A stretch of 64,000 nt of DNA from Bordetella parapertussis (GTDB lineage Bacteria > Pseudomonadota > Gammaproteobacteria > Burkholderiales > Burkholderiaceae_B), in NCBI GenBank assembly GCA_945865935.1, contig CAMBFI010000001.1, forward strand, positions 1-64,000, in the 5' to 3' direction. The notes beneath the pieces are model-generated. The model ran no database searches and was not told where the DNA came from. It was given only the letters and a program-made list of their open reading frames with translations. This document shows, one piece after another, positions 7,864-62,435 of the stretch. Made by a program: the position numbers and the translations under genes. The number at the start of each line of letters is the position of its first letter. The first letter of the stretch is position 1.

Positions 7864-7865
7864 AC

Positions 7866-17910: not shown

Positions 17911-17922
17911 TGTGAATCAAAC

Positions 17923-44153: not shown

Positions 44154-44175
44154 CCCGACCCAGCTTACTCGGGCT
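44152..44175. terminator. small hairpin between convergent genes
   Basis: Seven-base arms AGCCCGA (44152-44158) and TCGGGCT (44169-44175) overlap both stop codons of the SDR and Bug genes. It is short, but suited to bidirectional termination. Confidence 0.45.
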
Positions 44176-45130
44176 TGATGCCGATCTGCTTGACCAGATC
44201 ACCCCAGACTTTGTCTTCTTTCTCGAGAAACTTAGCGAATTGTTGCGGTGTATCGGTGCTGCTTTGCGCACCGATCTCGGCGATACGCTTGACCATCGCA
44301 GGCGAGGCCATGACTTTCATGACTTCGGCGTAAAGTCGATCGACGATTGGTTTTGGAGTGCCTGCAGGCAAGAAGAGTGCGTACCACTCATACAACTCAA
44401 AGCCTGGGAAACCTGACTCCGCGATCGTTGGGATGTCCTTTAAGGCCTCAGGTCGTGTAGCCCCCGTCGTTGCGATAGGACGAAGCTTTCCACTCTTAAC
44501 GTGTGGGATCGTGGAAGTTGGGCTGTTGATCAGCATCTGGATATGTCCAGCAAGCAGATCTGTGAGTGCTGGACCGCCACCCTTGTAGCCGATCTCAGTG
44601 ATGTTTACGGCGGCAAGCTTAATCAGGTATTGCATAGAGAGCTGACCCGAGGTCAGGCCACCTGGCGTACCGTAAGCCAAAGTGCCTGGTTTCGCTTTTG
44701 CGAGAGCAACGAGTTCTTGTAGATTCTTGGCAGGCACGCTAGGGTTGACGGTGAGGATGCCAGGCATCAGCGCGAGCATCGCAAGAGGGATGAAATCTTT
44801 CTTGCTGTCGTAAGGTAAGCTCTTGGTAATGTGCGGGTTAATCGCGTGTGCGCTAATGAACAGACCAATTGTGTTGCCATCAGGAGCTGCCCTTGCAACT
44901 TCTCGGGTCGCAATAGTGCTGTTCGCACCTGGCTTATTCACCACGAGCACGGGCTGCCCAAGGGCTTTGGAAAGATCGGGAGCGATCGCTCGGGCCAGCA
45001 CGTCTGAGGTGCCACCAGGTGCAAAGGTAACGATGAGTTGAATCGGCTTATTCGGCCAGTCAGTTTGTGCAAAGCTCGAGAGCGCGAAACTGCTTGCCGC
45101 GAGTGCAAACAAGAATTTAATTTTTTTCAT
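44165..45130 (-). CDS. Bug/TctC-family periplasmic solute-binding protein
   Basis: 321 residues. A signal peptide (FALAASSFALSSFAQT) precedes DWPNKPIQLIVTFAPGGTSD, VVNKPGANSTIATREV, GYKGGGPALTDLLAGH and ALFLPAGTPKPIVD, all typical. It is the last gene of the minus-strand operon, 51 bases after the racemase-like CoA-transferase gene. This suggests a periplasmic receptor for the acid that the operon degrades. It has no transporter subunits nearby. Confidence 0.93.
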   Translation of the reverse strand: MKKIKFLFALAASSFALSSFAQTDWPNKPIQLIVTFAPGGTSDVLARAIAPDLSKALGQPVLVVNKPGANSTIATREVARAAPDGNTIGLFISAHAINPHITKSLPYDSKKDFIPLAMLALMPGILTVNPSVPAKNLQELVALAKAKPGTLAYGTPGGLTSGQLSMQYLIKLAAVNITEIGYKGGGPALTDLLAGHIQMLINSPTSTIPHVKSGKLRPIATTGATRPEALKDIPTIAESGFPGFELYEWYALFLPAGTPKPIVDRLYAEVMKVMASPAMVKRIAEIGAQSSTDTPQQFAKFLEKEDKVWGDLVKQIGIKPE

Positions 45131-45181
45131 TTGAAGTCTCCAAGTGTTTTCGGTTTTAGTTTTAATGGTCTGCTGCGTATG

Positions 45182-46288
45182 TTATTTCAAAACCTCTTGC
45201 GTGTGTGCACCCAGCACGGGGCTTGTGTTGTCGGGGTTTTCGCTAAGGAAGACTGCGCTAATAGGGGTTGGCAAGGCGGGCATGCGTTGTCCGCTAGCGA
45301 CAATGACCCCGCGATTAAAGACGCCACGCGCCTTGAAGTGTGGATCTGATACGGCTTGCTCGAGTCCAATGACCTCTGTGACGCAAGTGTCTTTCCCTTC
45401 AAACTTTTCGAGCCAGTACGCCGCCGGATGTTGAGCAATGGTTTTTGCGACACTGGCTTTTACGAGCGCTGGATTGTCGAGATGTTCAAGTTCAGATAAA
45501 CCAAGAATCGACAGAAAGTTATTCCAAAACTTATCCTCCAGTGGAGCGGCTGCAAGATACTTATCATCTGCAGTTTGATAGATCTGATACCGAGGGCTGC
45601 CGCCCGTCACTAGCTCATCACCCGCTTTAGGCCACTCATCTGCGGCCCAGCCCGCTCCCAGCCCCCAGTACATCAGGGGAAACAGATTATCGGACATCGA
45701 TATATCAAGATGACACCCCACGCCGGTTTGATCGCAGTGGCGCAGTCCCAACAAAATATTCATCACGGCTGGGTAAGCGCCCGCTGCAAGGTCTGCGGTG
45801 AGGACGGGCGGCACGAAGGGTGCACCAGACTGATCGCTGCCAAGACGCACCATACCGGTACGGGCTTGATAATTCATGTCATGCGCTGCCACTTGAGCAT
45901 AGGGACCATACTGCCCAAAACCCGTAATCGAGCAGTAAATGATGCGCGGGTTAAGCGCTTTCGCGGCTTCGTAGCCTAAACCGAGGCGATCCATCACCCC
46001 CGGTCTGAATTGCTCAACGATGACGTCCGCTTGGGCGATCAGGATTTCAATCTTCTTTCGGATTGTCGGGTCTTTGAGGTCTGCGACGATCGATTTTTTT
46101 CCACGATTCAAGAGGCAGAAATTTACGCTGTCGGGCCCGACCTTTGGTTCGTAATCCCGCATATCGTCGCCCGAGGCGCGTTCAATCTTAATGACATCCG
46201 CGCCCGCATCCGCCAAGAGCAGTGTGCACATGGGTCCTGGCAAGAGCGTACTGAAGTCCAGCACTTTGACTCCCTCAAGCGGCTGCAT
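45182..46288 (-). CDS. CaiB/BaiF protein, alpha-methylacyl-CoA racemase-like
   Basis: 368 residues. The class III fold is shown by LEGVKVLDFSTLLPGPMCTL, NRGKKSIVADL, the Asp in LTADLAAGAYP (about 160) and GVGCHLDISMSDN. The stretch AAHDMNYQARTGMVRLG matches the catalytic His region (HDINY) of alpha-methylacyl-CoA racemases, which invert the 2-methyl branch. It overlaps the preceding pseudo-dehydrogenase gene by 14 bases (46275-46288), so translation is tightly coupled. A racemase would help when ring-cleavage products are branched. Confidence 0.88.
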   Translation of the reverse strand: MQPLEGVKVLDFSTLLPGPMCTLLLADAGADVIKIERASGDDMRDYEPKVGPDSVNFCLLNRGKKSIVADLKDPTIRKKIEILIAQADVIVEQFRPGVMDRLGLGYEAAKALNPRIIYCSITGFGQYGPYAQVAAHDMNYQARTGMVRLGSDQSGAPFVPPVLTADLAAGAYPAVMNILLGLRHCDQTGVGCHLDISMSDNLFPLMYWGLGAGWAADEWPKAGDELVTGGSPRYQIYQTADDKYLAAAPLEDKFWNNFLSILGLSELEHLDNPALVKASVAKTIAQHPAAYWLEKFEGKDTCVTEVIGLEQAVSDPHFKARGVFNRGVIVASGQRMPALPTPISAVFLSENPDNTSPVLGAHTQEVLK

Positions 46289-46946
46289 CGTCGTCCTCGA
46301 TGAGAAGATTCTGTTTTAACCAAGCGTTGCGCGCGCGACGAGCTGGCGCATAAGCTTCTTGGCCGAGTTGCTCGTATAGATCCTGGGTGACCTCGAAATG
46401 ATGATGCAAACCCGAGCGATTTAATAGCGCGATTGGACCGTCTGGATAACCCAGGCCAAGTCTAAGCGTCATATCCATGTCGTTGGCCGTGGCCAGACCC
46501 TCGTCGAGACGGCGCAGCGCTGCGTTGTAATAAGGACGAACGAGACGGTTAAGAATCCTGCCTGGAAAGTCATTGCAGATTGCGACGACTAGCCCTGAAG
46601 CCTCAAAAGCTGCACGCGCCGCTGCAAGTGCTTGGGTACTGGTGTAGGGCTTGCGCACGAGTTCCACGAGCTTTGTTGGCGCATCGTCACCCAAACGGAA
46701 ACGAGCAAAGCCAAGCACATTCTCAGGACCATTGTCGTCATCAATATGAATGCCTAAACATTCGTTACCGAGTTCGACTGCGATGAATGTCGCGGCCTCG
46801 TGATCAAACACTGAATTGGCAAAGGCTTCAGCAGCATCTTGTCCGATATAGACCAGGCTAGTGCCTTTGGAATCTGCTTGATTGATAAAGGCATGCTTGT
46901 CTGGAAAGGACTGACTGTCGCCCGCTGCAATGATTTGATAGGTCAT
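46275..46946 (-). CDS. 3-hydroxyacyl-CoA dehydrogenase-like pseudoenzyme (NAD domain lost)
   Basis: 223 residues from the ATG at 46946. The C-terminal dimerisation domain is intact (ICNDFPGRILNRLVRPYYN, DMTLRLGLGYPDGPIAL). The N-terminal Rossmann start lacks GxGxxG (MTYQIIAAGDSQSFPD), and the catalytic His, normally in HFFNP, is replaced in a stretch reading ARFRLGDDAP. Oxidation of hydroxyacyl-CoA is therefore unlikely; a structural partner or regulator is more plausible. It begins four bases after the intact homologue, so the two were probably made by duplication. Confidence 0.8.
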   Translation of the reverse strand: MTYQIIAAGDSQSFPDKHAFINQADSKGTSLVYIGQDAAEAFANSVFDHEAATFIAVELGNECLGIHIDDDNGPENVLGFARFRLGDDAPTKLVELVRKPYTSTQALAAARAAFEASGLVVAICNDFPGRILNRLVRPYYNAALRRLDEGLATANDMDMTLRLGLGYPDGPIALLNRSGLHHHFEVTQDLYEQLGQEAYAPARRARNAWLKQNLLIEDDDAAA

Positions 46947-46950
46947 GCTG

Positions 46951-47826
46951 TCAGGCTCCGAAAATCTTGTTGCTGTCATACGTATGAAAGCCCTTGCCGG
47001 TTTTACGGCCCAAGCGTCCTGCACCAATCATGCGCTTGACGAGCGGTGGGCATGCTGCCCGCGGCTCGTTCGTCACGCCGTGAAGCGCCTCGCAGAGTAA
47101 GAGTTGCGTATCCATACCCACCATATCGAGCAGTTCAAGTGGGCCCAGTGGGTAGCCGAGCGCAGTTTTAACAGCAAGGTCGATGTCTGCGGGCTCGGCA
47201 ACACCTTGGTCGACCAGATTAATCACATCGTTATGCCAAGGGACAAGAAAGTAATTGAGGATAAATCCCGGGGTGTCACGTGTACGCACAGGACGCTGCC
47301 CTAGGGCTTCACATAATTTCCACGCTTTGTCGAAGGTCTCGTCCGAAGTATTCATTCCAGGCGACATTTCAACCAGTTTCATCAATTGTGCAGGTAAACA
47401 AAAATGCATGCCGACAAAACGATCGTCGCGCCCGGTTCCGCCCGCAATCTCGGTGATCGATATGGTCGACGTATTGGAAGCAAAAAGAGTGTGGGAGGGA
47501 CAGACATCATTGAGCTGTTTAAAGATAGCGTGCTTGACCTTAAGATCTTCAAACACCGCCTCGATGACTAAATCGCAATCGCTAAAGTCTTGAATACTTG
47601 TGGTGGTTAAAAATTGCGCCATGATCAGCGCGTCTTCGCCCTCGGCAAGTTTGCCTCGTTCGACGGACTTTTTGAGAAAAGCGGCGGCTTGTTTACGTGC
47701 GTTTTCTAGAGGCTCGGGCTTTAAGTCGTAAATGCGGGTTTTAAAGCCGGCGCGTGCTGCAACGATGGCGATGCCGGTGCCCATCGTGCCACAGCCGACA
47801 ATTCCAATGGTTTGCTTGGCGTTCAT
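46951..47826 (-). CDS. 3-hydroxyacyl-CoA dehydrogenase
   Basis: 291 residues. It oxidises a 3-hydroxyacyl-CoA to the 3-oxo form with NAD. The Rossmann motif GIVGCGTMGTGIAIVAARAG (about 8-27), the VIEAVFEDL segment, FASNTSTISIT (substrate Ser) and MHFCLPAQLMKLVE with the catalytic His (HFFNP in most members) are visible. The C-terminal domain follows (TPGFILNYFLVPWHNDVI). It overlaps the acyl-CoA dehydrogenase gene by four bases. In the operon it suits the later beta-oxidation of pimeloyl-CoA. Confidence 0.92.
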   Translation of the reverse strand: MNAKQTIGIVGCGTMGTGIAIVAARAGFKTRIYDLKPEPLENARKQAAAFLKKSVERGKLAEGEDALIMAQFLTTTSIQDFSDCDLVIEAVFEDLKVKHAIFKQLNDVCPSHTLFASNTSTISITEIAGGTGRDDRFVGMHFCLPAQLMKLVEMSPGMNTSDETFDKAWKLCEALGQRPVRTRDTPGFILNYFLVPWHNDVINLVDQGVAEPADIDLAVKTALGYPLGPLELLDMVGMDTQLLLCEALHGVTNEPRAACPPLVKRMIGAGRLGRKTGKGFHTYDSNKIFGA

Positions 47827-48998
47827 TTTTTATCCTTGCGTAAAAAGCTGCGCCCGATCAATTGGCGATGGACCTGATTGGTACCTTCCCAGATTTGCGT
47901 AATCTTGGCATCGCGCATGAGTCGCTCCACACGATAGTCTTTGCAATAGCCATAGCCACCTAGGAATTGCACAGCATCGGTTGCGATCCGCATCGCGAGA
48001 TCGGTCGCTTTAAGTTTAAGAATCGATGCCTCGATGCCCACATCGGGGGCATCATCTTGAATCAATTGAGCGACCCGCCATAGCCAAGATTCGACCAGTA
48101 CAAGTTCGGCAGCGAGGTCTGCGATGTTGAACTGTAAGCCTTGAAACTCTAGGAGCCGCTTGCCCGACTGACTGCGATTGTTCATGTATTCAATCGCATC
48201 CTCAAAGGCTGCGCGAGCGATTCCAAGGGCATGCGCTGCGACGCTCGGTCTGGATTTATTGAGCGAGGCGAGTAATATTTTTAAACCGTCACCGGGGGCG
48301 CATAAAAGGTTCGCGCGAGGAATGCGCGCGTTGTCAAAGGCTAAGGATGCGGTGCCCGAGGCGCGCGTACCCATTTTGTCTTCGGTGCCGGTGATGCTGA
48401 AACCGGGTGTTCCCTTTTCAAGGACCACTGCAGAGATCGATTCCTTGCTGCCAGGGATTTCACTCCATTTGCCGAACATGATGTAGAGATCAGAAACATC
48501 GCCGTTCGAGATGAAAATCTTACTGCCATTCACAATGATCGAATCACCATCGGGAGTGAAAGTAGTTTTCATGCCCGTGGCATCAGACCCGGCTGTGGGC
48601 TCGGTGATGACCAACGACGCGAGCCCACCTTCAGCGATACGAGGGAGTAGGCGTGTCTTTTGCTCTTCGTTGCCGAAGTCCATCAAAGGCTTAACGGCAT
48701 GAAAATTCGTCGCCCAGATGATGCCAGTCGAGGCGCAGGCCTGACTGAGCTCGCGTACGCACGCGAGGTAGCAGGCGTAAGAAAGTGGTGCACCGCCGTA
48801 TTCTTCGGGGATGAACATGGCGTTCAAACCGAGTGCATTAATTTCTTGGACGTTGTCCCAAGGAAACTCACCTGATTTATCGTACTCAGCCGCACGCGGC
48901 GCAATTTTTTCACGCGCGAGTTGCTGCACTGAATCCAACAGCATGGATTCCTCTTGTGTCCATTTCTGCGAGGCGTCGAGACGACTTAATACATTCAT
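47823..48998 (-). CDS. acyl-CoA dehydrogenase (cyclohexanecarboxyl-CoA dehydrogenase type)
   Basis: 391 residues; FAD enzyme with the standard site: LVITEPTAGSDATGMKT, MGTRASGT, RDAKITQIWEGTNQVHRQ (catalytic Glu of EGT). In the alicyclic-acid operon it is best placed to make cyclohex-1-ene-1-carboxyl-CoA, the AliB step. That substrate is inferred from neighbours, since the sequence alone does not distinguish it from other short-chain enzymes. The stop overlaps the 3-hydroxyacyl-CoA dehydrogenase start by four bases. Confidence 0.9.
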   Translation of the reverse strand: MNVLSRLDASQKWTQEESMLLDSVQQLAREKIAPRAAEYDKSGEFPWDNVQEINALGLNAMFIPEEYGGAPLSYACYLACVRELSQACASTGIIWATNFHAVKPLMDFGNEEQKTRLLPRIAEGGLASLVITEPTAGSDATGMKTTFTPDGDSIIVNGSKIFISNGDVSDLYIMFGKWSEIPGSKESISAVVLEKGTPGFSITGTEDKMGTRASGTASLAFDNARIPRANLLCAPGDGLKILLASLNKSRPSVAAHALGIARAAFEDAIEYMNNRSQSGKRLLEFQGLQFNIADLAAELVLVESWLWRVAQLIQDDAPDVGIEASILKLKATDLAMRIATDAVQFLGGYGYCKDYRVERLMRDAKITQIWEGTNQVHRQLIGRSFLRKDKK

Positions 48999-49013
48999 GA
49001 TGGGTGTCCGAAA

Positions 49014-49772
49014 TTATTGCAACATGCCGTGTCCACCATCAATGTAGATGGTTTCTCCCGTCATGTAAGGGGAATTCAGTACAAAAAGTGAGGTAACGAG
49101 TTGGCCCACATCCTGAGCCTTGCCTGGCACGCCGGCGGGAATGCGTTTGGCGAGGAACTCAGCAAGCGGTCCTTTCTCGAGCATCTCGCGGTTAAAGTCG
49201 GTTTGGATATAGCCTGGCGCGACGTTCAATACACGGATTCCCTTCGAGGCCCATTCGACCGCCATGCAGCGTGTCATGGCCGCAACGGCGGCCTTTGTGG
49301 CGCAATAGGTAAGGTGTTGTTTGATGCCCAGCTTGTCAAAGAACGAGCCGATGTTCACGATTAGGCCACTCTTGTTTTCAAGTAAGTGAGGATAGGCCAC
49401 CTGGCTTGCGGCAAGAACTGAGTAGGCGTTGACATCCATGACGTTCTTGAACTCCGCCTCCGCGATGCTCTCGACGCGCCCTTGTGAATGAATACCTGCG
49501 TTATTGACTAGCCCAACGATGGGTTGGCCGCAACGCGTCACGACATCAGCGAAGGCATCTTTGAGTTGTTCGGGTCGACTGACATCGCATTTTGCGCTAA
49601 ACCACTGTGCTCGGTCGGCGTCTGTTGCGCCATCGACATGAGGTGCCTCACCTGATCGTGATAGACATCCCACCGCATAGCCTGCACGTGCTAATCCAAG
49701 CGAGATCGCTGCACCAATTCCGCGGCTTGCGCCCGTCACGATGATGCAACCCTTTGAAGTTGAGGCAGTCAT
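49014..49772 (-). CDS. short-chain dehydrogenase/reductase
   Basis: 252 residues. The cofactor motif TGASRGIGAAIS, NNAG, and the catalytic set SFFDKLGIKQHLTYCATKAA with Tyr and Lys in YCATK are clear. In the operon it could oxidise 2-hydroxycyclohexanecarboxyl-CoA to the 2-oxo form, the BadH role, before ring cleavage by the BadI-like hydrolase. Its sequence is not unusually close to BadH as far as I recall, so this is inference from position. It starts three bases from the crotonase gene. Confidence 0.88.
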   Translation of the reverse strand: MTASTSKGCIIVTGASRGIGAAISLGLARAGYAVGCLSRSGEAPHVDGATDADRAQWFSAKCDVSRPEQLKDAFADVVTRCGQPIVGLVNNAGIHSQGRVESIAEAEFKNVMDVNAYSVLAASQVAYPHLLENKSGLIVNIGSFFDKLGIKQHLTYCATKAAVAAMTRCMAVEWASKGIRVLNVAPGYIQTDFNREMLEKGPLAEFLAKRIPAGVPGKAQDVGQLVTSLFVLNSPYMTGETIYIDGGHGMLQ

Positions 49773-49774
49773 TT

Positions 49775-50557
49775 CTATTGATCCTTAAATACAGGAGGAC
49801 GTTTTTCTAAAAAGGCGGTCATCCCTTCTGTGGCATCTGCTGAGCGAAAAGCCAGTGTTGAGCAGTCTCGCTCGATACGAAGCCCTTCGGCAAGCGTGGT
49901 TTGCATGCCACGCAGGATAGCTTGCTTGGCCATGTCTAGCGCAATCAGTCCGTGTTTGAGGTAGGGTTTTAAAAACTCGCGACCGACTGCAGCAGAATCT
50001 TTCGAGTCGACGACACGCGTGACAAGTCCGATGCGCTCGGCTTCCGTTGCATCCACTGTACGCGCAGACAAGATCATGTCCAGTGCACGATCTTGACCAA
50101 TGACACGGGGTAGGCGTTGGGTGCCACCATATCCGGGGATGAGGCCAAGTTTGAGTTCAGGCAGACCCATTTTGGCACCAGGCGTTGCGACGCGGAACGT
50201 GCAAGACAGTGCGAGCTCTAGGCCGCCACCGAAGGCATAGCCATGAATAACCGCGACCGAGGGGACGCGTAATGCGGCCAAGCGATCAAAAACGCTCTGA
50301 CCAAAGCGCGCACCTTCATGCTCTTGCGTCAAGGTGCGTCCCATAAGCTCGGTGATATCTGCACCAGCACAAAAAGATTTTTCGCCTTCCCCAGTGACAA
50401 AGACGCCGCGCACTTGGCCCGCATCAATGGACTCTTCAATTTTCTGTAAAGCGCGGTCGAGCTGTCCCAGTATGTCAAAGCTCAACGCGTTAAGTGCCTT
50501 GGGGCGATTGAGGTGTAAGTGAGCGAGTTGGTCGGCGATATTGAGTTCAATGGCCAT
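49775..50557 (-). CDS. enoyl-CoA hydratase (cyclohex-1-enecarboxyl-CoA hydratase type)
   Basis: 260 residues. The crotonase site is complete: [26 protein letters not shown] (first Glu, about 113) and [18 protein letters not shown] (second Glu, about 133). It adds water to an enoyl-CoA. In the cluster it is well placed to make 2-hydroxycyclohexanecarboxyl-CoA from the cyclohexene form, the BadK step. The gene is flanked by two-base and eight-base gaps, so the five central genes are a compact operon. Confidence 0.9.
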
Positions 50558-50565
50558 AGGGGCTC

Positions 50566-52248
50566 CTAGGTGCTACTAGCTGATTCGGGATTCTTCCAAC
50601 GCACGGGGGTAGGTTGGAGTTCGCCGCGTTTGGTCATTTCTATCAGTTCGCGCTTCAGAATCTTTCCACTAGCAGTCAAGGGAAACGCGGGCATCACGAT
50701 AAAAAACTCGGGCATGTCGTACTTGGATAGACCGACTGCGTGCAAGTGCTGCAGGACTTCGTTGGGATCGAGATCGCCAGCACTTCGCGTAAGTACGGCG
50801 AGGCATACCCGCTCGCCCAACCGGTCGTCTGCGATCGGGAATGCCGCAGCCTTGGCGATGTTTGCGTGCCGATGCGCGAGATCTTCAATACGCGCGGGAT
50901 GGATATTGTGTCCACCGCGAATAATGAGATCCTTCTTGCGTCCGACGATTTGCAGACAGCCTTGATTGTCCATGACACCCAGGTCGCCGCTCATGAACCA
51001 GCCAGAGCCATTGAAAGAGCGCTCTGTTGCAGTTTGATCATCAAAGTAGCCGAGTGTTAAGACGCCACCGCGACCACCGATCTCACCGACTTGTCCAATC
51101 GGTAGTTCGTTATCTGGATTTTCGGCATCAAAAATGCGAATCTCATAACCAAGCCCAGAGCGTCCGCAGGTCGCGACAATTGTGTTGGTAGGATCTGTCG
51201 GCAGGGTGTATTGATGTGAGCCGTTCTCGGTCATGCCATATACATTTTGCGGCGTAATGCCGATACGCAGAAACTGTTCAGCGACTTCGCGTGGGATGGG
51301 AGAACCTGCCATATAAAAGGACTTGACCTGCCCGAGCGCAGATAAGCCGCGCTTGCGAAACTCATCCAAAATATCCATAGCATGGGTCGGCACGCCCATG
51401 ACATAGGTCGCGTGACTCGCGATGATCCAATCGATCGCAGGCGTACCGGACGCGTAGTTGTGAATCGCGAGCTGCATACCAGCGCTCAACCATTGTTCGG
51501 CAGCGACCGTGCCGATGTGATGGCTCAGCGGGCTCAGTGTGAGCAAAATCGTTTCAGTGTTGTGGTGCCAGTCCTTCACCATACTGCGACCATTGGCCAG
51601 CAAAGTGTTGTCACTATGCATGACCCCCTTGGGCAATCCTGTCGTGCCTGACGTAAACGCGAGGTAAACAATTTTGTCTGGATGATCGACGGGTACGGGT
51701 TGCGCGTTCAGGTCGCTGCATTCCTTCGGAAAGGGTAGTGTTCCTGTGGCGAGGGACGCCGCTTGATTGAAATGTGCGCCCGAGACATAGGTGGCCCGCA
51801 GCGACTTTACTTGCTCCAGTTTGTCGAAAATCGGCCGCTTAACAGCATCGGAGCCGTAGCCTGGTGTAGTGAAAAATGCTTTGCAGTCAATACGTTTGAG
51901 TAAGGTAATGATCTCGTCTGCAGTGTAGCTTTGGTGTAAGGAGGGGCAACACACATAGCCGTTACGCGAGCATGCCAGCAAAATCATGACGCTTTCGACA
52001 CGGCTGGGTAGCCAAATTGCGACGCGGTCGCCAGCCTTGAGCCCAGCGTTGTGCAACGTCGCAGCCAAGGCTTCCACGGTATTGAAGACTTCAAGCCACG
52101 TAAGCGTTGTGAAGTTATCTCGCAACGCCACGGAGCTTGGTCGTTGTGTGGTGTGCTTGGCCAGCAAACCAAACATCGTATCGTGTTGCCACGCACCGCT
52201 TGCGTAATGCTCGCGGGTTTTCTGTGGATCATGCAAAGTCAGCATCAT
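50566..52248 (-). CDS. aliA: cyclohexanecarboxylate-CoA ligase-like AMP-binding enzyme
   Basis: 560 residues of the ANL superfamily. The adenylation motifs are YLAFTSGTTGLPKGVMHS (about 210-227), VYGMTENGSHQYT, GWFMSGDLGVM, RKKDLIIRGGHNIHP and the lysine in LTASGKILKREL. It makes an acyl-CoA from a free acid, ATP and CoA. Together with the BadI-type gene just upstream it fits AliA, which activates cyclohexanecarboxylate. The name rests on that neighbourhood, so a related alicyclic or cyclic acid is possible. Confidence 0.85.
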   Translation of the reverse strand: MMLTLHDPQKTREHYASGAWQHDTMFGLLAKHTTQRPSSVALRDNFTTLTWLEVFNTVEALAATLHNAGLKAGDRVAIWLPSRVESVMILLACSRNGYVCCPSLHQSYTADEIITLLKRIDCKAFFTTPGYGSDAVKRPIFDKLEQVKSLRATYVSGAHFNQAASLATGTLPFPKECSDLNAQPVPVDHPDKIVYLAFTSGTTGLPKGVMHSDNTLLANGRSMVKDWHHNTETILLTLSPLSHHIGTVAAEQWLSAGMQLAIHNYASGTPAIDWIIASHATYVMGVPTHAMDILDEFRKRGLSALGQVKSFYMAGSPIPREVAEQFLRIGITPQNVYGMTENGSHQYTLPTDPTNTIVATCGRSGLGYEIRIFDAENPDNELPIGQVGEIGGRGGVLTLGYFDDQTATERSFNGSGWFMSGDLGVMDNQGCLQIVGRKKDLIIRGGHNIHPARIEDLAHRHANIAKAAAFPIADDRLGERVCLAVLTRSAGDLDPNEVLQHLHAVGLSKYDMPEFFIVMPAFPLTASGKILKRELIEMTKRGELQPTPVRWKNPESASST

Positions 52249-52281
52249 GATCGAATGATTCCTTTATGCGCAGACAAGCCG

Positions 52282-53061
52282 TTATTGACCAAACTTCGAG
52301 GCATCTGGCTGACGACGTTCCGCAAAGGAGGCGGCCATTTCGTCATGCTCTTCGGTCTCAAGGTAGCCGCGTAACAGCAAGTCGTGCGCCATGCGGGACA
52401 GACCGCCGACGCCACCGTGCCGGGCATTAAATGCGGCCTTGATCGACGCTAGTGCGAAGGCTCCGCGATCGGCGATTTCAAGCGCCCATTTGCGTGTTTC
52501 AGCGCGTAACTCTGCGGCGGGAACGACCCGGTTGATCAGGCCCATATCAACCGCTTGCTGCGGTGAGATCTTGGGGTTTGAGTACCACATCTCTTTGGCG
52601 CGCTTTTTACCGATCAAGTCCTCGAGATACCATGTTCCGTAGCCTGCATCAAAACTGCCTACCATGGGCCCAACCTGACGGAACATGGCATTGTCCGCGG
52701 CGATCGTCACGTCACACACCATTTGCAATACGTTGCCACCACCGACTGCATAACCGTTTACCGAGGCGATCACGGGCTTTTGTAGCCGATCAATGCTTTC
52801 GTACATTTCAAGCGTTGGCAGGACGCCCGCATAGAGTTGCGTCTCTTCCATGCCGTCCTTGCGGCCACCCAAACAAAAAAAACGATCGCCTGCACCCGTC
52901 AGTACGATCACGCGAGTCCGGGTTTCCCTTCTGATTTCATTGATACAGTCGCGAATCTCATGACACATTTTTTCTGTGAACATGTTGCCGTCTTGCGGAC
53001 GATTCATCGTGATGGTTCCGATGGGGCCATCTTCTTCGTAAAGGATTTCGTCGAACTTCAT
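52282..53061 (-). CDS. badI: 2-ketocyclohexanecarboxyl-CoA hydrolase
   Basis: 259 residues from the ATG at 53061 (GGAG seven bases upstream), the length of BadI; an in-frame extension upstream is not supported. BadI opens the alicyclic ring, giving pimeloyl-CoA. It is a crotonase-fold relative of MenB, and shows RFFCLGGRKDGME, VGGGNVLQMVCDVTIAAD, QVGPMVGSFDAGYG with the Ser/Asp pair, and GKKRAKEMWY. These long, distinctive segments separate it from plain hydratases. It is the second gene of the operon, 33 bases before the ligase. Confidence 0.88.
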   Translation of the reverse strand: MKFDEILYEEDGPIGTITMNRPQDGNMFTEKMCHEIRDCINEIRRETRTRVIVLTGAGDRFFCLGGRKDGMEETQLYAGVLPTLEMYESIDRLQKPVIASVNGYAVGGGNVLQMVCDVTIAADNAMFRQVGPMVGSFDAGYGTWYLEDLIGKKRAKEMWYSNPKISPQQAVDMGLINRVVPAAELRAETRKWALEIADRGAFALASIKAAFNARHGGVGGLSRMAHDLLLRGYLETEEHDEMAASFAERRQPDASKFGQ

Positions 53062-53116
53062 TTGTGATCTCCTGCGACTAAAGTTTGAATGATTGATGTG
53101 TGTAAATGTATCTGAT

Positions 53117-53899
53117 TTAAAGTTGAACGCTGGCGCTTCCGATCCCATCAAACTGCGCCACGACGAGGTCTCCCGCTTGTGCCGCGGGCATGCCGCACCA
53201 GCTGCCCGTCGTGACAATCGAGCCTGCCGGTAAGGTTTGGTCGCCAGCCGTGACGTGTCGCACCCAAAAGGGAATCACCCAGCGCGGGTCTTGTAGGGAG
53301 TGGGTGCCGATGAATTCGAGTGGGGCCTGGTTGCCGATTTTGACAGTGCAGCGTTGTTTGGACCAATCGCGATGTATTTCACGTTCGCTATAGGTGAGCC
53401 AGTCCCCCAAGACGAGTGCGCCGTGCGACTGCATGTCCGCGAGTTTGAGCAAAGGTGAGGCGTTGTCGATTTGATTCCAACGTGAGTCGACGACTTCAAT
53501 CGATACTGTGAGTGCATCGATGAGGTCATGGCCTTGCTCTTCTGTTAAGGCCGCAGCTTCTTGCGGTGTCACGCTGCGTTTAGTTCTGAAGGCGATTTCG
53601 ATTTCAATGAGACGGATATTGAAAGGGTGGGCTCCCGCTTTTGCAGGGCTTGACCAAATGCCTGAGTCGAGTAGGGCGGTGTTGGCGATCTCGCCTTGTC
53701 GCGAGGGTCCGCCGGATTTCCAGTAACGGGCTGGTTGACGTTGGTTCGGTGCGAGAGCTAGCAGCACTTGCTCTTGGACCGCTTGCGCATCTTGCGGGTG
53801 TTGCAGCACGGCGAGTAAGGGCGTTGGATCAACAGGATGTTGATCGGTCCGAGCCGAAAGCAGTGCCTGGGTGACGGCGGCAATATGCGAAGTTGACAT
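53117..53899 (-). CDS. hydratase of the 2-oxopent-4-enoate hydratase (MhpD/FAH) type
   Basis: 260 residues. The FAH-like core is seen in NIRLIEIEIAFRTKR (metal-binding Glu pair), DALTVSIEVVDSRW, ADMQSHGALVLGDW and ITTGSWCGMP, with the T-G-S-W replacing the T-G-x-P loop of family hydrolases. Such enzymes hydrate or decarboxylate 2-oxo-enoic acids in meta-cleavage pathways. Its place as the first gene of the alicyclic-acid operon is unexpected, since BadI already opens the ring. The true reaction is unknown. Confidence 0.8.
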   Translation of the reverse strand: MSTSHIAAVTQALLSARTDQHPVDPTPLLAVLQHPQDAQAVQEQVLLALAPNQRQPARYWKSGGPSRQGEIANTALLDSGIWSSPAKAGAHPFNIRLIEIEIAFRTKRSVTPQEAAALTEEQGHDLIDALTVSIEVVDSRWNQIDNASPLLKLADMQSHGALVLGDWLTYSEREIHRDWSKQRCTVKIGNQAPLEFIGTHSLQDPRWVIPFWVRHVTAGDQTLPAGSIVTTGSWCGMPAAQAGDLVVAQFDGIGSASVQL

Positions 53900-53986
53900 G
53901 AAATTCCACTCTATAGTTGGGAATCAAGGATAATCCAGATCTCTCATCGTCGGCGCCCCGGCGGCGTCCACAATCTAAGAATTCCT

Positions 53987-54526
53987 ATGGCTCTACGCGC
54001 AACGATTTACAAGGCTGAACTCAATGTGGCGGACTCGGACCGTCACTATTACGGGAGTCATGCCTTAACCTTGGCTAGACACCCCTCTGAGACAGACGAA
54101 AGAATGATGGTGCGTCTGCTGGCGTTTGCTTTGCATGCCCAAGAGGACCTGGCATTCACAAAGGGGTTAAGCGACACCGACGAGCCCGATGTTTGGCGTA
54201 AGGATTTGACGGGCGCCATTGATTTGTGGATCGAGGTGGGTCAGCCCGAAGAGCGTCGTATTCTGAAGGCTTGCGGTCGAGCCAAGCAAGTTGTGGTGTA
54301 TTGCTACGCAGGGCATAACAGTAAGCTCTGGTGGGATTCCGTGCGTAATAAGCTTGAGCGCACCCGCAATCTTCGCGTGGTCTGCCTGCCCTCGGATCGG
54401 ACCAAAGAGCTTGCGTCCTGGGCGCAACGCACCATGACACTTCATGTCAATATTCAGGATAGTGAATTGTTTGTGTCGAGCGACCAAGGTCAGCTCATGC
54501 TCGAGCAAGAGGTCTGGCGTGAATAA
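53987..54526 (+). CDS. yaeQ: YaeQ family protein
   Basis: 179 residues. The YaeQ family has a PD-(D/E)XK-like fold of unknown function. The start MALRATIYKAELNVADSDRH, the YYGSHALTLARHPSETDERM core and the DLTGAIDLWIEVGQPEERR block (Asp, Glu and Gln of the nuclease-like site) are typical. No other gene in the run helps to assign a role. It reads divergently from the operon and ends in a strong hairpin before the dehalogenase gene. Confidence 0.93.
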   Translation: MALRATIYKAELNVADSDRHYYGSHALTLARHPSETDERMMVRLLAFALHAQEDLAFTKGLSDTDEPDVWRKDLTGAIDLWIEVGQPEERRILKACGRAKQVVVYCYAGHNSKLWWDSVRNKLERTRNLRVVCLPSDRTKELASWAQRTMTLHVNIQDSELFVSSDQGQLMLEQEVWRE

Positions 54527-54554
54527 GCAGCGCCAGGATGCGTGTGGCGCTGCT
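54526..54554. terminator. bidirectional hairpin
   Basis: Perfect ten-base arms AGCAGCGCCA (54526-54535) and TGGCGCTGCT (54545-54554), GC-rich with a nine-base loop, between yaeQ and the convergent dehalogenase. A two-way terminator is likely. Confidence 0.7.
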
Positions 54555-54568
54555 CTAATGGTCCGGAC

Positions 54569-55288
54569 TTAGACGCCCATTTGCGTAGCGAGATCGCGAA
54601 TATCTTTGGCGACGACATCCCACTTTTCTGTTGCAACCAGATTTGTCTTCTGCTCGGGGCCGTGCTCCGTTGGCCGCGGCCAGAAGGCAGTTTTGAGTCC
54701 GACCTTTCGCGCGGCGGCCAAGTCGTCATTGTGTGCTGCACACATCATGACTTCACTTGGATCAAGCTGCAAAATCTGGGCAACGCCCAAATAGGATTGT
54801 GGCTGCGGCTTGTAGCAGTGAAACACCTCAGTGGATAAGTTTAAATCCCAAGGTAAGCCGGTGTACTTTGCGATGTCTGTCAGCAACGAGACGTTGCCGT
54901 TTGAGAGCGGGGCAATGATGTATTTGCTCTTCAGACGCGTCAGACCCGAGACCGCATCTGGCCAGCCATCGAGGCGATGCCACACTTTGTTGACATGCTG
55001 GCGTTGCGCTTCGGTCATTTTTTCAAGACCAAACTCCGGCAATAACTGCTCGAGAGACTCGCGATGCAAAACATCCAGAATGGTCCATTCTCTCTGACCA
55101 CTGCGTACCTTTTCCATCGAGGGCTGGTAGAGCGAGCGCCACTTCACCGCCAGTGCTGTCCAGTCACAGGAGTAGCCATTCTCCGAACCCCAGCGGGTGA
55201 GATCGCGTGTGATGCTTCCACGCCAGTCGACCACGGAACCAAACGTGTCGAACACCATTGCTTTGACTGTCGAAGTGAGTGTGCTCAT
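54569..55288 (-). CDS. (S)-2-haloacid dehalogenase, type II (HAD superfamily)
   Basis: 239 residues. Type II dehalogenases remove halide from 2-haloacids through an Asp nucleophile. The motif VFDTFGSVVDW (Asp about 15), APLSNGNVSLL and MCAAHNDDLAAARKVGLKTA (the Asp/Asn end motif) are visible. The fold is that of many HAD phosphatases, so a different small substrate is possible. The start abuts the SDR stop, so the two genes are coupled. An acid-activation context is not seen here. Confidence 0.88.
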   Translation of the reverse strand: MSTLTSTVKAMVFDTFGSVVDWRGSITRDLTRWGSENGYSCDWTALAVKWRSLYQPSMEKVRSGQREWTILDVLHRESLEQLLPEFGLEKMTEAQRQHVNKVWHRLDGWPDAVSGLTRLKSKYIIAPLSNGNVSLLTDIAKYTGLPWDLNLSTEVFHCYKPQPQSYLGVAQILQLDPSEVMMCAAHNDDLAAARKVGLKTAFWPRPTEHGPEQKTNLVATEKWDVVAKDIRDLATQMGV

Positions 55289-56062
55289 TTACATCACCGC
55301 GGACATGCCGCCATCAAGGTTGACGCTGCTGCCCGTGACGTAACTAGAAGCCTCAGAGGAGAAGAAGGCAACGACATTGGCGACCTCTTCGGCACGACCG
55401 ACACGACCAAGCGGCACATCTTTGCCGTGATTTTCGTAGAGTTGTTCCACAGAAATACCAGCCTTGGCGGCTTTGCGTTCGTGTTGACCTGCTCGGATCA
55501 AACCAATGCAGATGCTGTTGACAAGAATGTTGTCGCCTGCGAATTCTTTTGATAAAGCTTTGGTCATGGCCAAGCCCGCGGCACGTGTCACCGTTGTTGG
55601 CATTGATTTGGCGCGAGGTTGTTTCGCACCGATGTTTGTCACGTTGATAATGCGACCCCACTTGTTCTTGCGCATTTCTGGGATAGCCAGACGCGACAAG
55701 CGAATCGCAGCGAATAGTTTGAGATCAAAGTCGGCTTGCCAGTCTTTGTCAGTGACGGATTCAAACTCACCGGTCGCCGAGGTGCCGGCGTTGTTAATCA
55801 AGATATCGATGCGGCCATAGGCCTTTAAGATTTCCTGGATGATGCGCGCACATTCCGCGTCCTGACTGACATCAGCCGCAATGGCGAGGACGTTACCGCC
55901 CGCTGCACGAATGTCAGCGGCTACTTGATCTAAGAGTTCCCGTCCGCGGGCTGCAATCACAACGGTCGCGCCCTCCTCGGCGAGCTTCATGGCGCACGCT
56001 TTGCCAATACCTTGAGATCCACCTGTGACAAGCGCCACTCTATTTTTTAGTCCGAGGTCCAT
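55289..56062 (-). CDS. short-chain dehydrogenase/reductase
   Basis: 257 residues. TGGSQGIGKACA binds the cofactor, NNAGTSATGEFES marks the active-site loop, and the Ser-Tyr-Lys positions are changed: around NVTNIGAKQPRAKSMPTTVT the usual YxxxK is not evident, so catalysis is uncertain. It ends exactly where the dehalogenase gene begins, so the two are translated together. A substrate cannot be named. The pair might handle a halo-acid or alcohol, but that is a guess. Confidence 0.85.
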   Translation of the reverse strand: MDLGLKNRVALVTGGSQGIGKACAMKLAEEGATVVIAARGRELLDQVAADIRAAGGNVLAIAADVSQDAECARIIQEILKAYGRIDILINNAGTSATGEFESVTDKDWQADFDLKLFAAIRLSRLAIPEMRKNKWGRIINVTNIGAKQPRAKSMPTTVTRAAGLAMTKALSKEFAGDNILVNSICIGLIRAGQHERKAAKAGISVEQLYENHGKDVPLGRVGRAEEVANVVAFFSSEASSYVTGSSVNLDGGMSAVM

Positions 56063-56134
56063 TTGATATCTCCGTTTAAGCGTTTGTAAGTTGTTGTAGG
56101 TTGTACCGAAATACCTGCCGCATGACTAGTTGTT

Positions 56135-56785
56135 TTAAGTCTCTGTGGCGACTTGCCTGAGCGCCTCTTCAAAGGCCTCCGCGGGTTGTGCACCTTGAAG
56201 CAAGTATTTGTCGTTAATAATGATGGAGGGGACCGAGTGAATACCCATCGAGGTGTACTTCATTTGCTGAGCACGGACGTCTGCGGCAAATTCGTCTGTG
56301 GCGAGGATATCGGACGCCCGTTTTGAGTCGAGCCCAGCGCGGTTGACAGCATCGAGAAGATTTTGTGCTTGGTCAAGATCGACGGCTAACTGAAAATACG
56401 TCACCAGTAATTCACGCTTAAGCCTATGTTGCGCTTGGGCACCGAACTCAAGTCCCGCCCAATGTAAGAGCCTGTGCGCGTTAAAGGTGTTGTAGACGTG
56501 CTTGCGACCCTCAGGGTGAAAGGGATAACCCACTGCTGCCGCACGTGCCTTAATTTCGTTTTGCGTGGCGCGCACTTGTTCAACTGTCTTGCCATATTTT
56601 TGGGTCAGATGTTCAAAGACATCTTGTCCGCCGGGCGGCATATCAGGATTCAATTCGAAGGGTTGGAAGTGCACTTCCACCTCGAACGCACCCCCAATTT
56701 TTTTGATTGCTTGCTCGAGGCCGCCAAGGCCGACGGCGCACCACGGGCACGCGATATCTGAAACATAATCAATCTTGATTGCCAT
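56135..56785 (-). CDS. DsbA-family protein, FrnE-like
   Basis: 216 residues with no signal peptide, hence cytoplasmic. The thioredoxin-fold motif is CPWC in SDIACPWCAVGLGG (about 9-22), typical of FrnE-like and 2-hydroxychromene isomerase relatives. VPSIIINDKYLLQGAQPAE with cis-Pro completes the fold. It may act in thiol redox or glutathione-linked isomerisation. It lies between an SDR and the divergent isopropylmalate-type dehydrogenase; no operon is obvious. Confidence 0.92.
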   Translation of the reverse strand: MAIKIDYVSDIACPWCAVGLGGLEQAIKKIGGAFEVEVHFQPFELNPDMPPGGQDVFEHLTQKYGKTVEQVRATQNEIKARAAAVGYPFHPEGRKHVYNTFNAHRLLHWAGLEFGAQAQHRLKRELLVTYFQLAVDLDQAQNLLDAVNRAGLDSKRASDILATDEFAADVRAQQMKYTSMGIHSVPSIIINDKYLLQGAQPAEAFEEALRQVATET

Positions 56786-56980: not shown

Positions 56981-58069
56981 ATGCAAGGTAAATATCAAAT
57001 CGCGACGATCGAAGGCGACGGGATTGGTCCGGAGGTATGCCGCGCTGCCGTCACGGTGTTGAAAGAGGCGCTGGGTGAGGGGGTCATGTCGTTTGATGAC
57101 TTTCCTGGTGGTGCCTCGCACTACGTGAAGACCGGACAGGTTCTTCCTCCCGATACGTTTGATGCGTGTAAGACTGCGCATGCAATGCTGCATGGCGCAG
57201 CGGGTCTGCCCAACGTGACTTACCCAGATGGCACAGAGGTGGGGAACGATCTGCATTTGCAGTTACGGTTCAAGCTAGATTTGTATGCGAATGTGCGCCC
57301 TATTCGTTTATACCAAGGGGATTTTTCACCTCTAAAAAATCGTGCGGCCGGTGATATCGACTACGTGATCGTGCGTGAGAACACCGAAGGTTTGTATGCA
57401 AGTCGCGGGGCCGGCGTGTTGCTGCGCGGAGAAGTCGCGACAGACACCTTGGTGCTCACTCGAAAAGGTTGTGAGCGGATCGCACGCTTTGCGTTTGAAC
57501 TGTCGCGTAAACGCAATGGCGCACCCTCCGACCACAAACGGCGAATGACAGTCTGCGATAAGGCAAACATTTTGCGAAGCTATGCCTTCTTTCGGTCCGT
57601 CTGTGATGATGTGGCCAAAGACTATCCGGACGTGGCGATTGATTACGCCTATGTGGATGCGATTACCGTGCACTTGGTTAAGCGTCCCGAGTTTTACGAT
57701 GTGATCGTTGCAGAAAACTTATTTGGCGACATCATTTCGGATTTGGGTGCTGCAACCGTCGGTGGGATGGGTATTGCGCCGTCGGGCGAGCTCGGAGACA
57801 GACATGGCTTGTTTCAGGGCGCACATGGTTCGGCCCCCGACATTGCGGGTCAAAATATTGCAAGTCCCTTAGCGACGGTCTTATCTGGGTCCTTCATGCT
57901 GCGCTGGCTAGGTGATCGTCATTCGGATCAGCGTTTGATTGATGCGGCCCAACGGGTAGATCGAGCGGTAGAACTTACGTTGGCGCAAGGTAAAGCCATT
58001 CCTAGGGATTTGGGTGGGCTGGCCTCGTGTTCAGAGGTCACGCAGGAAATTTGCCGAAATCTGAAGTAA
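56981..58069 (+). CDS. isocitrate/isopropylmalate-type dehydrogenase
   Basis: 362 residues, AGGAG upstream. It is a decarboxylating beta-hydroxy-acid dehydrogenase: GDGIGPEV (about 12-19), LRFKLDLYANVRP, VRENTEGLYASRG (substrate loop), CDKANILR, VDAITVHLVKRPEFYDVIV and HGSAPDIAGQ (cofactor). The family includes 3-isopropylmalate, isocitrate, tartrate and homoisocitrate enzymes, and these motifs do not separate them. Lone position near efflux and dehalogenase genes favours a catabolic member over LeuB. Confidence 0.9.
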   Translation: MQGKYQIATIEGDGIGPEVCRAAVTVLKEALGEGVMSFDDFPGGASHYVKTGQVLPPDTFDACKTAHAMLHGAAGLPNVTYPDGTEVGNDLHLQLRFKLDLYANVRPIRLYQGDFSPLKNRAAGDIDYVIVRENTEGLYASRGAGVLLRGEVATDTLVLTRKGCERIARFAFELSRKRNGAPSDHKRRMTVCDKANILRSYAFFRSVCDDVAKDYPDVAIDYAYVDAITVHLVKRPEFYDVIVAENLFGDIISDLGAATVGGMGIAPSGELGDRHGLFQGAHGSAPDIAGQNIASPLATVLSGSFMLRWLGDRHSDQRLIDAAQRVDRAVELTLAQGKAIPRDLGGLASCSEVTQEICRNLK

Positions 58070-58143
58070 GGCTCCCCACACAGGGCGCACTGAGGTTTAC
58101 CCGTATAAAATGCGAGGATCAAGCATATAAGCTGGGATTTTTC

Positions 58144-62200: not shown

Positions 62201-62435
62201 GTTGGCTTTTATTCTGGGTGTTTTCCCCTTGGTGATTTCAAGCGGCGCCGGTGCGGCAGCTCGCAAATCAATGGGCACAGGCGTATTTGGTGGGATGTTG
62301 GTATCGACCTTCATTGCGACGATATTTGTGCCGATGTTTTATACATGGTTGTCGCGCAAGCAAAAGACTGCAGAGGCCCAGCCAGCTGAGCGCAGTGGCG
62401 CGTTATCGGATGTTGACGCAGGAAATAAGCCATGA
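59286..62435 (+). CDS. RND multidrug efflux permease, AcrB/MexB (HAE-1) family
   Basis: 1049 residues, the standard length. It is the proton-driven pump trimer of the inner membrane. The start MSFSSFFIGRPIFSAVISI, IEEQLSGVENLLFFSS, the proton-relay Asp pair in IGIVVDDAIVVLENVERLM (about 405) and the Lys of VLVGLSAKNAILIVEFA (about 930) are all present, with twelve helices. It is coupled to the adaptor and to the outer-membrane gene by ATGA overlaps. The substrate range is unknown. Confidence 0.97.
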   Translation: MSFSSFFIGRPIFSAVISITIVIAGLMAARGLPIAQYPQIAPPTVIVTANYPGASTETLTRTVAGPIEEQLSGVENLLFFSSVAQSSGTLVITATFEVGTNVDTATVNVNNRVKIAEPRLPDVVRQFGVTAQKRSNDILMVAAVTSPSDEYSNLYLSNYALVNVLDELKRLPGVGDAAVLGAKDYAMRVWLKPDRMAQLGLTAPDVAAAIAAQNKQNVAGKIGQEPAPEGQQLVYTVTAKGRLVTPEQFGEIVIRSTGAGGVLRLKDVARVELGAADYDANTTLLGKPVALVATYLQSGANALAVADSVRKKMQELEKKFPPGIEYVIPFDTTKFVTASINEVMKTLAEAMVLVAIVVFMFLQNWRATLIPLIAVPVSLIGTFAGLWVFGFSINTLTLFAMVLSIGIVVDDAIVVLENVERLMAERQLSPKEAAYEAMREVSGAVVAIVLVLSAVFIPVAFLGGIAGKLYQQFAVTVALAVVLSGVVALTLTPALCAVLLKPGLHEPKGFRWFNRAFAAFTDRYTGLVKYTLHHRVLGASVFGAIVVGCFVMFRMVPGGFVPPEDQGYLISALVLPDGASLQRTQETGDAFQKKIAQDPGVARVFVIAGNDIIGGGRRTNAGTVFIPLKDWDQREASSDQLAKKFTGLGMTLPDGMALVFNPPPIRGLGSAGGFEFYVQSKGEPSVSNLALVTNNFIEELKKQPTLTGINTFFRPTSPQLYVEVDEAKALSLGIPVSDVYFSLQALMGSLYVNDFNLNGRTYRVQMQADSQYRATPTDLGQLYVRADNGSMVPISALITVSTLVGPEQLERFNGFLAAKVLGSATVGVSSGEAIKVVQGVAEASLPSGYELAWAGQAYQQIRTGTASGLAFAFGIIMVFLILAAQYERWSLPIAVLLAVPFAVFGALLAVLVRSMPNDIYFQIGLIVLVGLSAKNAILIVEFAAQKREQGLNSIDAAMLAAKQRFRPIVMTSLAFILGVFPLVISSGAGAAARKSMGTGVFGGMLVSTFIATIFVPMFYTWLSRKQKTAEAQPAERSGALSDVDAGNKP

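Follow-up and report, generated by a model that had tools for sequence, protein, structure and literature searches.

An operon with a third-clade BadI/MenB-like hydrolase in a Bordetella parapertussis contig: a copy of a conserved, apparently undescribed cassette for predicted ring-opening acid catabolism

Is the minus-strand operon on the first 64,000 nt of contig CAMBFI010000001.1 of Bordetella parapertussis (assembly GCA_945865935.1) a complete cyclohexanecarboxylate operon, as the initial annotation proposed, or does it belong to another system? In what follows, the window is this whole 64,000-nt stretch, L-numbers are labelled loci of relatives and G-numbers are genomes; the host genome measures 3.25 Mb in 54 contigs. 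First of all, the proposed genes were recovered in the proposed order as ten minus-strand open reading frames (ORFs; Table 1), nine of them in 45182–53899, but the Bug gene lies outside that interval. The family-level names of all ten proteins are backed by Pfam, whereas the names BadI, AliA and AliB find no support at equivalog level. The successive gaps in operon order are 55, 33, 8, 2, 15, −4, 4, −14 and 51 bp; seven of the nine are at most 33 bp, in keeping with the tight spacing described at the outset, but only two pairs overlap, and "several" overlapping genes was too strong. The locus is a real, conserved and apparently undescribed variant of what looks like ring-opening acid catabolism. 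We consider it rather probable that the window's operon represents one copy of a conserved cassette which activates an alicyclic acid with CoA and opens its ring hydrolytically, with an enzyme set of its own.

The BadI-like protein, whose gene start was taken as the ATG at 53061 and not as the TTG of the mechanical ORF, reaches 218.8 bits against the BadI model TIGR03210 (cut-off 467.6), 222.6 bits against the MenB model TIGR01929 (cut-off 342.7) and 255.6 bits against the MenB model PRK07396 (cut-off 380), that is to say, none of the three cut-offs; it is 43–47% identical to annotated menB products. A tree (LG+C20, bootstrap/SH-aLRT supports) was built from 62 rows hand-picked from the available loci, each row being a tblastn-matched segment and not a full protein: 28 proteobacterial and two actinobacterial rows of the protein's own clade, 12 MenB rows, 17 BadI-family rows and three outgroup crotonases of the own genome. 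A scanned row counts as "BadI-family" when it reaches 403 bits or more with the BadI model, and a plasmid gene counts when it has aliA, aliB or SDR genes as neighbours; the set is without Rhodopseudomonas palustris BadI. The window protein falls within the clade of the 28 proteobacterial rows (100/98), and the two actinobacterial rows join them (100/99, on a branch of 1.46). The 12 MenB rows form their own clade (100/99) apart from it, and the 17 BadI-family rows also stand apart, although the tree does not show them as one clade. The phylogeny by which BadI was to be told from MenB has therefore returned neither: the protein belongs to a third clade outside both.

The residues agree with this division. 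Every one of the 59 clade, BadI and MenB rows, the 30 clade rows included, keeps Ser136 and Asp138 of the GSFD motif (GS-x-D), which we take to be the catalytic residues of BadI; the three outgroup crotonases have other residues in these columns. Moreover, all 30 clade rows have Arg128, Met133, Glu147 and Asp148, whereas the 29 BadI or MenB rows have none of these four. The likeness to MenB thus lies in the fold family and the GSFD motif, and the difference in the missed cut-offs, the separate clade and an operon without men genes. As for the sister of the third clade, the free tree places it with MenB (75/95), at a join where, according to the tool's warning, long branches meet; when it is constrained with BadI, the likelihood exceeds that of the free tree by 8.44 (p-AU 0.657), and constraining BadI and MenB together against it gives p-AU 0.633, so neither is favoured. 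These figures bear on the view that this is a true cyclohexanecarboxylate operon after all, in which a divergent BadI would convert 2-oxocyclohexanecarboxyl-CoA to pimeloyl-CoA. Its grouping with BadI is not rejected, the Ser and Asp are kept, all reaction types are present, and the own genome has no second BadI-like gene (next best match 34%); nevertheless, the evidence given below makes this view unlikely.

The second line of evidence is the conservation of the gene row. Altogether 87 loci were examined, of which 56 had enough flank to be counted and 31 were dropped; the loci taken from named genomes or metagenome-assembled genomes (MAGs) are the best-scoring 80 of at least 559 relatives. 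Five genes, those for the SDR, the hydratase, the acyl-CoA dehydrogenase and the two 3-hydroxyacyl-CoA dehydrogenase proteins, were each found near the hydrolase gene in 51 of the 56 loci, so that the gene order is indeed beyond chance; the ligase gene was found in 50, a CoA-transferase gene in 47, the racemase gene in 39, a sigma-54 activator gene in 28 and a quinone-oxidoreductase-like gene in 26. The cassette has the order CoA-transferase, hydrolase, ligase, hydratase, SDR, acyl-CoA dehydrogenase, two-part 3-hydroxyacyl-CoA dehydrogenase and racemase, and it spans Alcaligenaceae, Burkholderiaceae, rhizobia, roseobacters and sphingomonads. A count for PAAH2 (39/56, at a loose 36% threshold) was set aside as probably inflated by paralogues, for it was scored in L097, which shows none.

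The two ends of the operon are not part of this core. The first gene, called an MhpD-like hydratase before, encodes a distant member of the FAA superfamily (33 bits against an HpaH cut-off of 351.5); it was rejected as a core step, since it is near the hydrolase gene in four of the 56 loci and lies about 7 kb from it in four congeners (L101, L103, L106 and L109). The Bug gene was likewise found in four of the 56 loci at 60% identity or more and is a genus-level companion of the cassette.

In terms of distribution, the nearest named carriers are the freshwater Alcaligenaceae Zwartia hollandica LF4-65 (L097, hydrolase 98% identical) and Jezberella montanilacus (L113, 84%). The hydrolase is present at 84% identity or more in 19 of 31 other genomes of the genus, one of these being a partial match, and relatives 66–85% identical are carried on plasmids of Achromobacter, Paraburkholderia, Cupriavidus, Burkholderia, Aminobacter, Salipiger, Celeribacter and Ancylobacter. 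At E ≤ 1e-80 only the window's own genome has it among 398 sampled evenly over the phylum, and 14 of 300 Burkholderiales genomes, the own one included, have it; the cassette is therefore sporadic and partly plasmid-borne.

The remaining enzymes can be compared with the bad-ali system of Rhodopseudomonas palustris and Aromatoleum sp. CIB, with which the operon shares five reaction types: ligase, acyl-CoA dehydrogenase, hydratase, SDR and crotonase-fold hydrolase. According to the accessible text of PMC9795900, deletion of badHI in Aromatoleum sp. CIB abolishes growth on cyclohexanecarboxylate with or without oxygen, so that to call the pathway best known from Rhodopseudomonas undersells its range. 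The ligase of the operon reaches 227.4 bits against the AliA model (cut-off 792.3) and the acyl-CoA dehydrogenase 145.9 bits against the AliB model (cut-off 575.35), and no NCBIfam model matched the SDR at E ≤ 1e-60. As a control, eight proteins encoded in BadI-family loci of plasmids from Paracoccus, Marinobacter and Cupriavidus were scanned: AliB gave 573 and 602 bits, AliA 727 and 818, BadI 474, and the three SDRs beside BadI-family genes 347, 350 and 381 on the BadH model, all under its cut-off of 431.2. Three of the eight pass their own cut-offs and five, the three BadH among them, miss them. NCBIfam cut-offs were therefore rejected as sole proof, and the tree and the width of the score gap carry the argument.

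The missed BadH cut-offs count in favour of a divergent BadI operon, but the gap counts against it, the ligase, AliB-like and BadI-like proteins of the window all scoring far under their counterparts from BadI-family loci (227 against 727–818, 146 against 573–602, and 219 against 474). Families for activating, desaturating, hydrating, oxidising and hydrolysing a ring acid are all present, as was claimed for the route to pimeloyl-CoA, but nothing gene-specific for cyclohexanecarboxylate was found. The cassette also differs from bad-ali in the clade of its hydrolase and in the added 3HCDH pair, racemase and, in relatives, CoA-transferase. The bad-ali regulator in Aromatoleum and Rhodopseudomonas is the MarR-type BadR, whereas a sigma-54 activator is found in many relatives of the cassette. 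Next to the BadI-family genes of L178 and L179 (not of L177 and L180) stand MarR-family genes. In neither L178 nor L179 is a CaiB-family protein or a 3HCDH pair annotated, while L177 has a CoA-transferase gene. The operon would work like bad-ali, but it is not a member of it.

Moreover, BadI-family genes occur alongside the cassette. In the window's genus they lie at other loci, L032 (G017; 403 bits) and L036 (G002); G002 also has a partial third-clade match. Plasmid pRK1-1 of Cupriavidus basilensis carries both a badI operon, whose BadI (L180 3188–3988) scores 474 bits and passes the cut-off, and the cassette (at L039 14001–14780), about 30 kb apart. The BadI cut-off is passed in 6 of 300 Burkholderiales genomes. 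Of the 14 genomes that have the cassette hydrolase, 4 also have a BadI-family gene of at least 400 bits, compared with 13 of the 300 genomes in all (Fisher p 0.0017, uncorrected for kinship); three of the four co-carrying genomes are of one genus, and the two 300-genome samples are taken as the same, their handles agreeing. Since badI and the cassette coexist, the one does not simply replace the other, and they probably differ in substrate.

Two further proteins extend the reaction set. The 291-aa dehydrogenase matches positions 6–290 of the 507-position profile PRK08268, and its 223-aa partner, whose gene start was taken as the ATG at 46946, matches positions 347–494 and, in a 514-aa homologue, the second C domain. 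Celeribacter (L041) has one fused 504-aa protein (positions 5–489), and six further fused dehydrogenase ORFs were flagged by an ORF scan that did not flag the Celeribacter one; all PRK08268 matches, of the split pair and of the fused protein, are under the subfamily cut-off of 508 bits. With the fused orthologues the split is explained: what had been called a pseudo-dehydrogenase is the split-off C-terminal module of a two-module PaaH-type enzyme, to judge from these alignments, and not a decayed stand-alone enzyme, and the pseudoenzyme reading was rejected. The CaiB protein finds its best matches among solved structures in fatty-acyl (FAR) and alpha-methylacyl-CoA (MCR) racemases; in the alignment to 2g04 and 1x74 the His of its AHDMNY aligns with GHDINY, and an Asp further on is kept, both of which are presumably catalytic. 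A racemase would, to our knowledge, have no evident function in breaking down unsubstituted cyclohexanecarboxylate, and its presence suggests an alpha-substituted acyl-CoA in the pathway.

The neighbouring genes also hint at the substrate. Upstream of the transferase gene, six congener genomes encode a 175-aa protein that no Pfam family matches, together with a PRISE-family and an FAD_binding_2 protein, and in four of them the module visibly lies between the FAA gene and the transferase gene, together with a Bug gene. Relatives of module and Bug gene are found in the same order on contig C8 of the own genome (L208 9021–13025, about 27.0–31.0 kb), in a row of Bug, 168-aa protein, PRISE-family and FAD_binding_2 genes followed by Amdase-family and SMP-30/gluconolactonase-family genes. 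In Cupriavidus a PRISE gene, a dehydroquinase-II-like gene and an SDR gene stand beside the cassette, and dehydroquinase-II-like genes also occur in L131 and L144. It has been reported that PRISE enzymes reduce the activated double bonds of 1,4-enones (PMC11643720, accessible part). These neighbours suggest oxidised rings, cyclic ketones or enones. Rather than plain cyclohexanecarboxylate, the operon probably degrades a ring acid that carries substituents or is oxidised (terpenoid- or naphthenate-like). Tetrahydrophthalate was dropped as a substrate, no paper in the open literature searched joining the term with Cupriavidus.

Put together, the predicted route would run as follows. The ligase would convert the ring acid to its CoA ester, the acyl-CoA dehydrogenase would introduce the 1-ene, the hydratase would add water, and the SDR (or the two-part 3-hydroxyacyl-CoA dehydrogenase) would give the 2-oxo ring acyl-CoA. 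The third-clade hydrolase would then open the ring by a retro-Dieckmann reaction to a dicarboxylic mono-CoA ester, and the two-part PaaH-type dehydrogenase would serve the beta-oxidation of the opened chain; the racemase may act on an alpha-methyl (or other alpha-substituted) intermediate, and Bug proteins may feed uptake. A bolder version, which we put forward only tentatively, is that the third clade constitutes a new class of ring-opening beta-ketoacyl-CoA hydrolases with a pocket of Arg128, Met133 and Glu147-Asp148 for polar substituted alicyclic acyl-CoAs, and that the cassette, sigma-54-controlled in many hosts, on plasmids across Proteobacteria and with an actinobacterial branch, opens a new aerobic route for oxidised terpenoid or naphthenic acids.

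Several facts weigh against the reading as a ring-opening cassette. We know of no enzyme activity or growth phenotype for any member found. A tree backs the placement of the hydrolase only, while the other genes are assigned by profile scores and synteny, and since the loci are the best-scoring relatives, the synteny count is biased to close relatives. The substrate class is drawn from neighbours in a minority of loci. Tyr233 is conserved in the clade, but the BadI and MenB rows have Y or F there, in an ambiguous stretch of the alignment. The racemase gene was not found at the threshold in 17 of the 56 loci, so alpha-substitution cannot be essential everywhere. Finally, the minimal cassettes L133 and L167 consist of transferase, hydrolase, hydratase and dehydrogenase pair and have no ligase, no SDR and no acyl-CoA dehydrogenase, while L140 and L165 are without every other core gene; such reduced loci do not fit one fixed reaction list.

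The minimal cassettes speak for another explanation, namely beta-oxidation of branched or dicarboxylic acyl-CoAs without ring opening, with the hydrolase as an acyclic beta-ketoacyl-CoA hydrolase or an ordinary hydratase. The PaaH-type dehydrogenase and the racemase would also have a place in it, and the best model of the relatives' CoA-transferase is succinate-glutarate CoA-transferase, though far under its cut-off (300.8/750). We hold it to be improbable, because the Ser and Asp of BadI and MenB are kept where the three outgroup crotonases differ, a separate hydratase gene is nearby in 51 of 56 loci, and no thiolase was found by Pfam among the ten operon proteins. In the own genome there are 13 acyl-CoA dehydrogenase matches including that of the operon (10 were scanned) and two thiolases over the cut-off; these counts are uninformative on the use of pimeloyl-CoA.

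The reading of the operon as a ring-opening cassette can be set against further known systems. The mrc operon of Castellaniella defragrans shows the same logic of hydratase, dehydrogenase and ring hydrolase in Alcaligenaceae, and an mrc-like operon for the cleavage of monoterpene rings, with perillyl-CoA-type substrates, would find some favour in the racemase, which fits branched intermediates, in the PRISE link and in an AtuA-family gene of the Jezberella locus. As given in the accessible text of PMC4109377, however, MrcE is 88% identical to Azoarcus BadI, so that mrc, by this published figure, probably uses the BadI clade, and mrc has MaoC and dienoyl reductase genes, of which types none is among the ten operon proteins. 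The AtuA gene occurs in only two of 105 loci (L086 and L113), which are the same place in one genome, and a terpene link through it was discarded; in L113 it stands upstream of the cassette at 7192–8550. This explanation is very improbable.

EchA20, a MenB-like crotonase 24% identical to BadI, opens a steroid ring by a reverse Dieckmann reaction according to the accessible part of PMC5380842. Together with IpdAB it acts on the steroid C and D rings; the likeness to the cassette lies in the MenB-like crotonase and in an IpdA-like gene near the reduced cassettes L042 and L167, but the window operon has no IpdAB-like genes, and EchA20 was compared by description only. The IpdA-like genes, so named from a type I CoA-transferase annotation, lie at L167 4226–5167 (Paraburkholderia xenovorans LB400 chromosome 3) and L042 5134–6057 (a Rhodococcus opacus plasmid) and are 63% identical, in two phyla.

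The chcpca cluster of Rhodococcus aetherivorans BCP1 is also aerobic and has badI, badH, aliA and aliB-like genes; it is induced 70- to 290-fold by cyclohexanecarboxylate and 180- to 800-fold by cyclopentanecarboxylate, and it differs in its TetR regulators and glutaryl-CoA dehydrogenase, its BadI-like protein being compared by description only (PMC5906575, accessible part). For the CoA-transferase of the relatives, ThnP, which carries out intramolecular CoA transfer on ring diacids, might be a precedent by analogy, although it is of family I and the relatives' transferase is of another family (PMC11659651, accessible part). A naphthenate pathway has been predicted for Cupriavidus gilardii CR3, mostly from isoenzymes, in the accessible text of PMC4547698. 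A link to the biofilm gene echA of Achromobacter was also abandoned, since the accessible text of PMC6684605 compares EchA with DspI and no tie to the cassette was seen in it.

In relatives of the cassette, sites for a predicted sigma-54 control are found. Of 105 loci, 22 have a transferase gene and a divergent activator gene separated by 50–700 bp, and in all 22 gaps a −24/−12 type site (9 or 10 of 10 consensus bases) is present on the operon strand; per gap, at most 1.5% of 200 single-base shuffles match its score. The 105 loci hold the same places of the genus twice and some of the 22 are near-identical (L039/L129, L111/L112), so these are not 22 independent cases. Upstream of the FAA and BadI-like genes of the window the same scan finds at best 6 of 10 bases, and in the congeners L100 and L101 it finds 6 or 7 of 10 at three places. 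Among the scanned proteins at 44165–56785 there is no regulator, ORFs under 150 aa and an SDR-like ORF at 55289–56062 being outside the scan.

Neither the activator nor the CoA-transferase has a close relative in the own genome: the activator gives one match (44% over residues 233–503 of 560), and the best of 23 matches to the transferase is at 40%. Since several congeners retain the transferase, the window holds a reduced form of the cassette, which is without activator, −24/−12 site and CoA-transferase, probably by loss. Neither activator nor transferase was seen in Celeribacter L041, and no activator in Ancylobacter L045. On contig C14 (58348–60675) the CaiB-family gene that is this best match to the CoA-transferase (40%) adjoins a gene whose protein passes the 3-sulfinopropanoyl-CoA desulfinase cut-off (622.8/600).

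No description of the cassette or of the third clade was found among the top results of searches of the open literature, subscription journals being mostly outside the search. Eleven of twelve plasmid records (matches of at least 60% identity) annotate the hydrolase as "enoyl-CoA hydratase-related protein", and the twelfth is unannotated; a similarity-based reading as BadI or MenB would credit genomes with cyclohexanecarboxylate or menaquinone chemistry that they may not have. Aerobic breakdown of alicyclic acids is still poorly known, and a conserved, often plasmid-borne cassette in freshwater, soil and marine bacteria is a candidate for it, naphthenic acids included. The clade residues and the sigma-54 promoter are direct handles on its function.

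Table 1. Genes of the operon, in operon order, and other features of the window.
Feature	Position	Strand	Basis
FAA-superfamily protein directly upstream of hydrolase gene; neighbour, not core	53117–53899	−	Pfam FAA_hydrolase
BadI/MenB-like crotonase, third clade; likely ring-opening beta-ketoacyl-CoA hydrolase	52282–53061	−	Profiles, tree, residues
AMP-forming acyl-CoA ligase (predicted free-acid activation), cassette core	50566–52248	−	Pfam AMP-binding; 50/56 loci
Enoyl-CoA hydratase, crotonase family, cassette core	49775–50557	−	Pfam; 51/56 loci
SDR alcohol dehydrogenase, cassette core	49014–49772	−	Pfam; 51/56 loci
Acyl-CoA dehydrogenase, butyryl/short-chain type, cassette core	47823–48998	−	Profiles; 51/56 loci
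3-Hydroxyacyl-CoA dehydrogenase, N-terminal half (NAD-binding and first C domain), split PaaH type	46951–47826	−	PRK08268; GCGTMG motif
Second half of split PaaH-type 3-hydroxyacyl-CoA dehydrogenase	46275–46946	−	PRK08268; second C domain of homologue
Family III CoA-transferase fold protein, alpha-methylacyl-CoA racemase type (CaiB)	45182–46288	−	Alignment; 39/56 loci
Bug/TctC-type periplasmic solute-binding protein, 51 bp after racemase gene	44165–45130	−	Pfam TctC
YaeQ-family gene, divergent from FAA gene	53987–54526	+	
Row of three genes (HAD-like hydrolase, SDR-like, DsbA-like) upstream of operon	54569–56785		
Three ORFs (420, 1049 and 472 aa) whose sizes resemble those of a tripartite RND efflux pump	58027–63850	+	Size only

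Among the minor observations, tRNA and Rfam searches of the window gave no match. The pair of YaeQ and FAA genes is kept in congeners, even where the FAA gene is far from the cassette, and the row of HAD-like, SDR-like and DsbA-like genes is also present in L096 and L097. In the MAG locus L164 a hydantoinase A/B pair lies downstream of the cassette (16039–20213). Ligases 49% and 46% identical to that of the operon occur in L202 (11507–13168, Alicycliphilus pDP3) and L203 (12001–13644, Arthrobacter pLDW-10), where their neighbours are genes of the xanthine-dehydrogenase type and of the quinone-oxidoreductase and polysaccharide-deacetylase families, and no gene of the stretches covered is annotated as BadI-like; from these contexts, the operon's ligase family seems to be common to other pathways.

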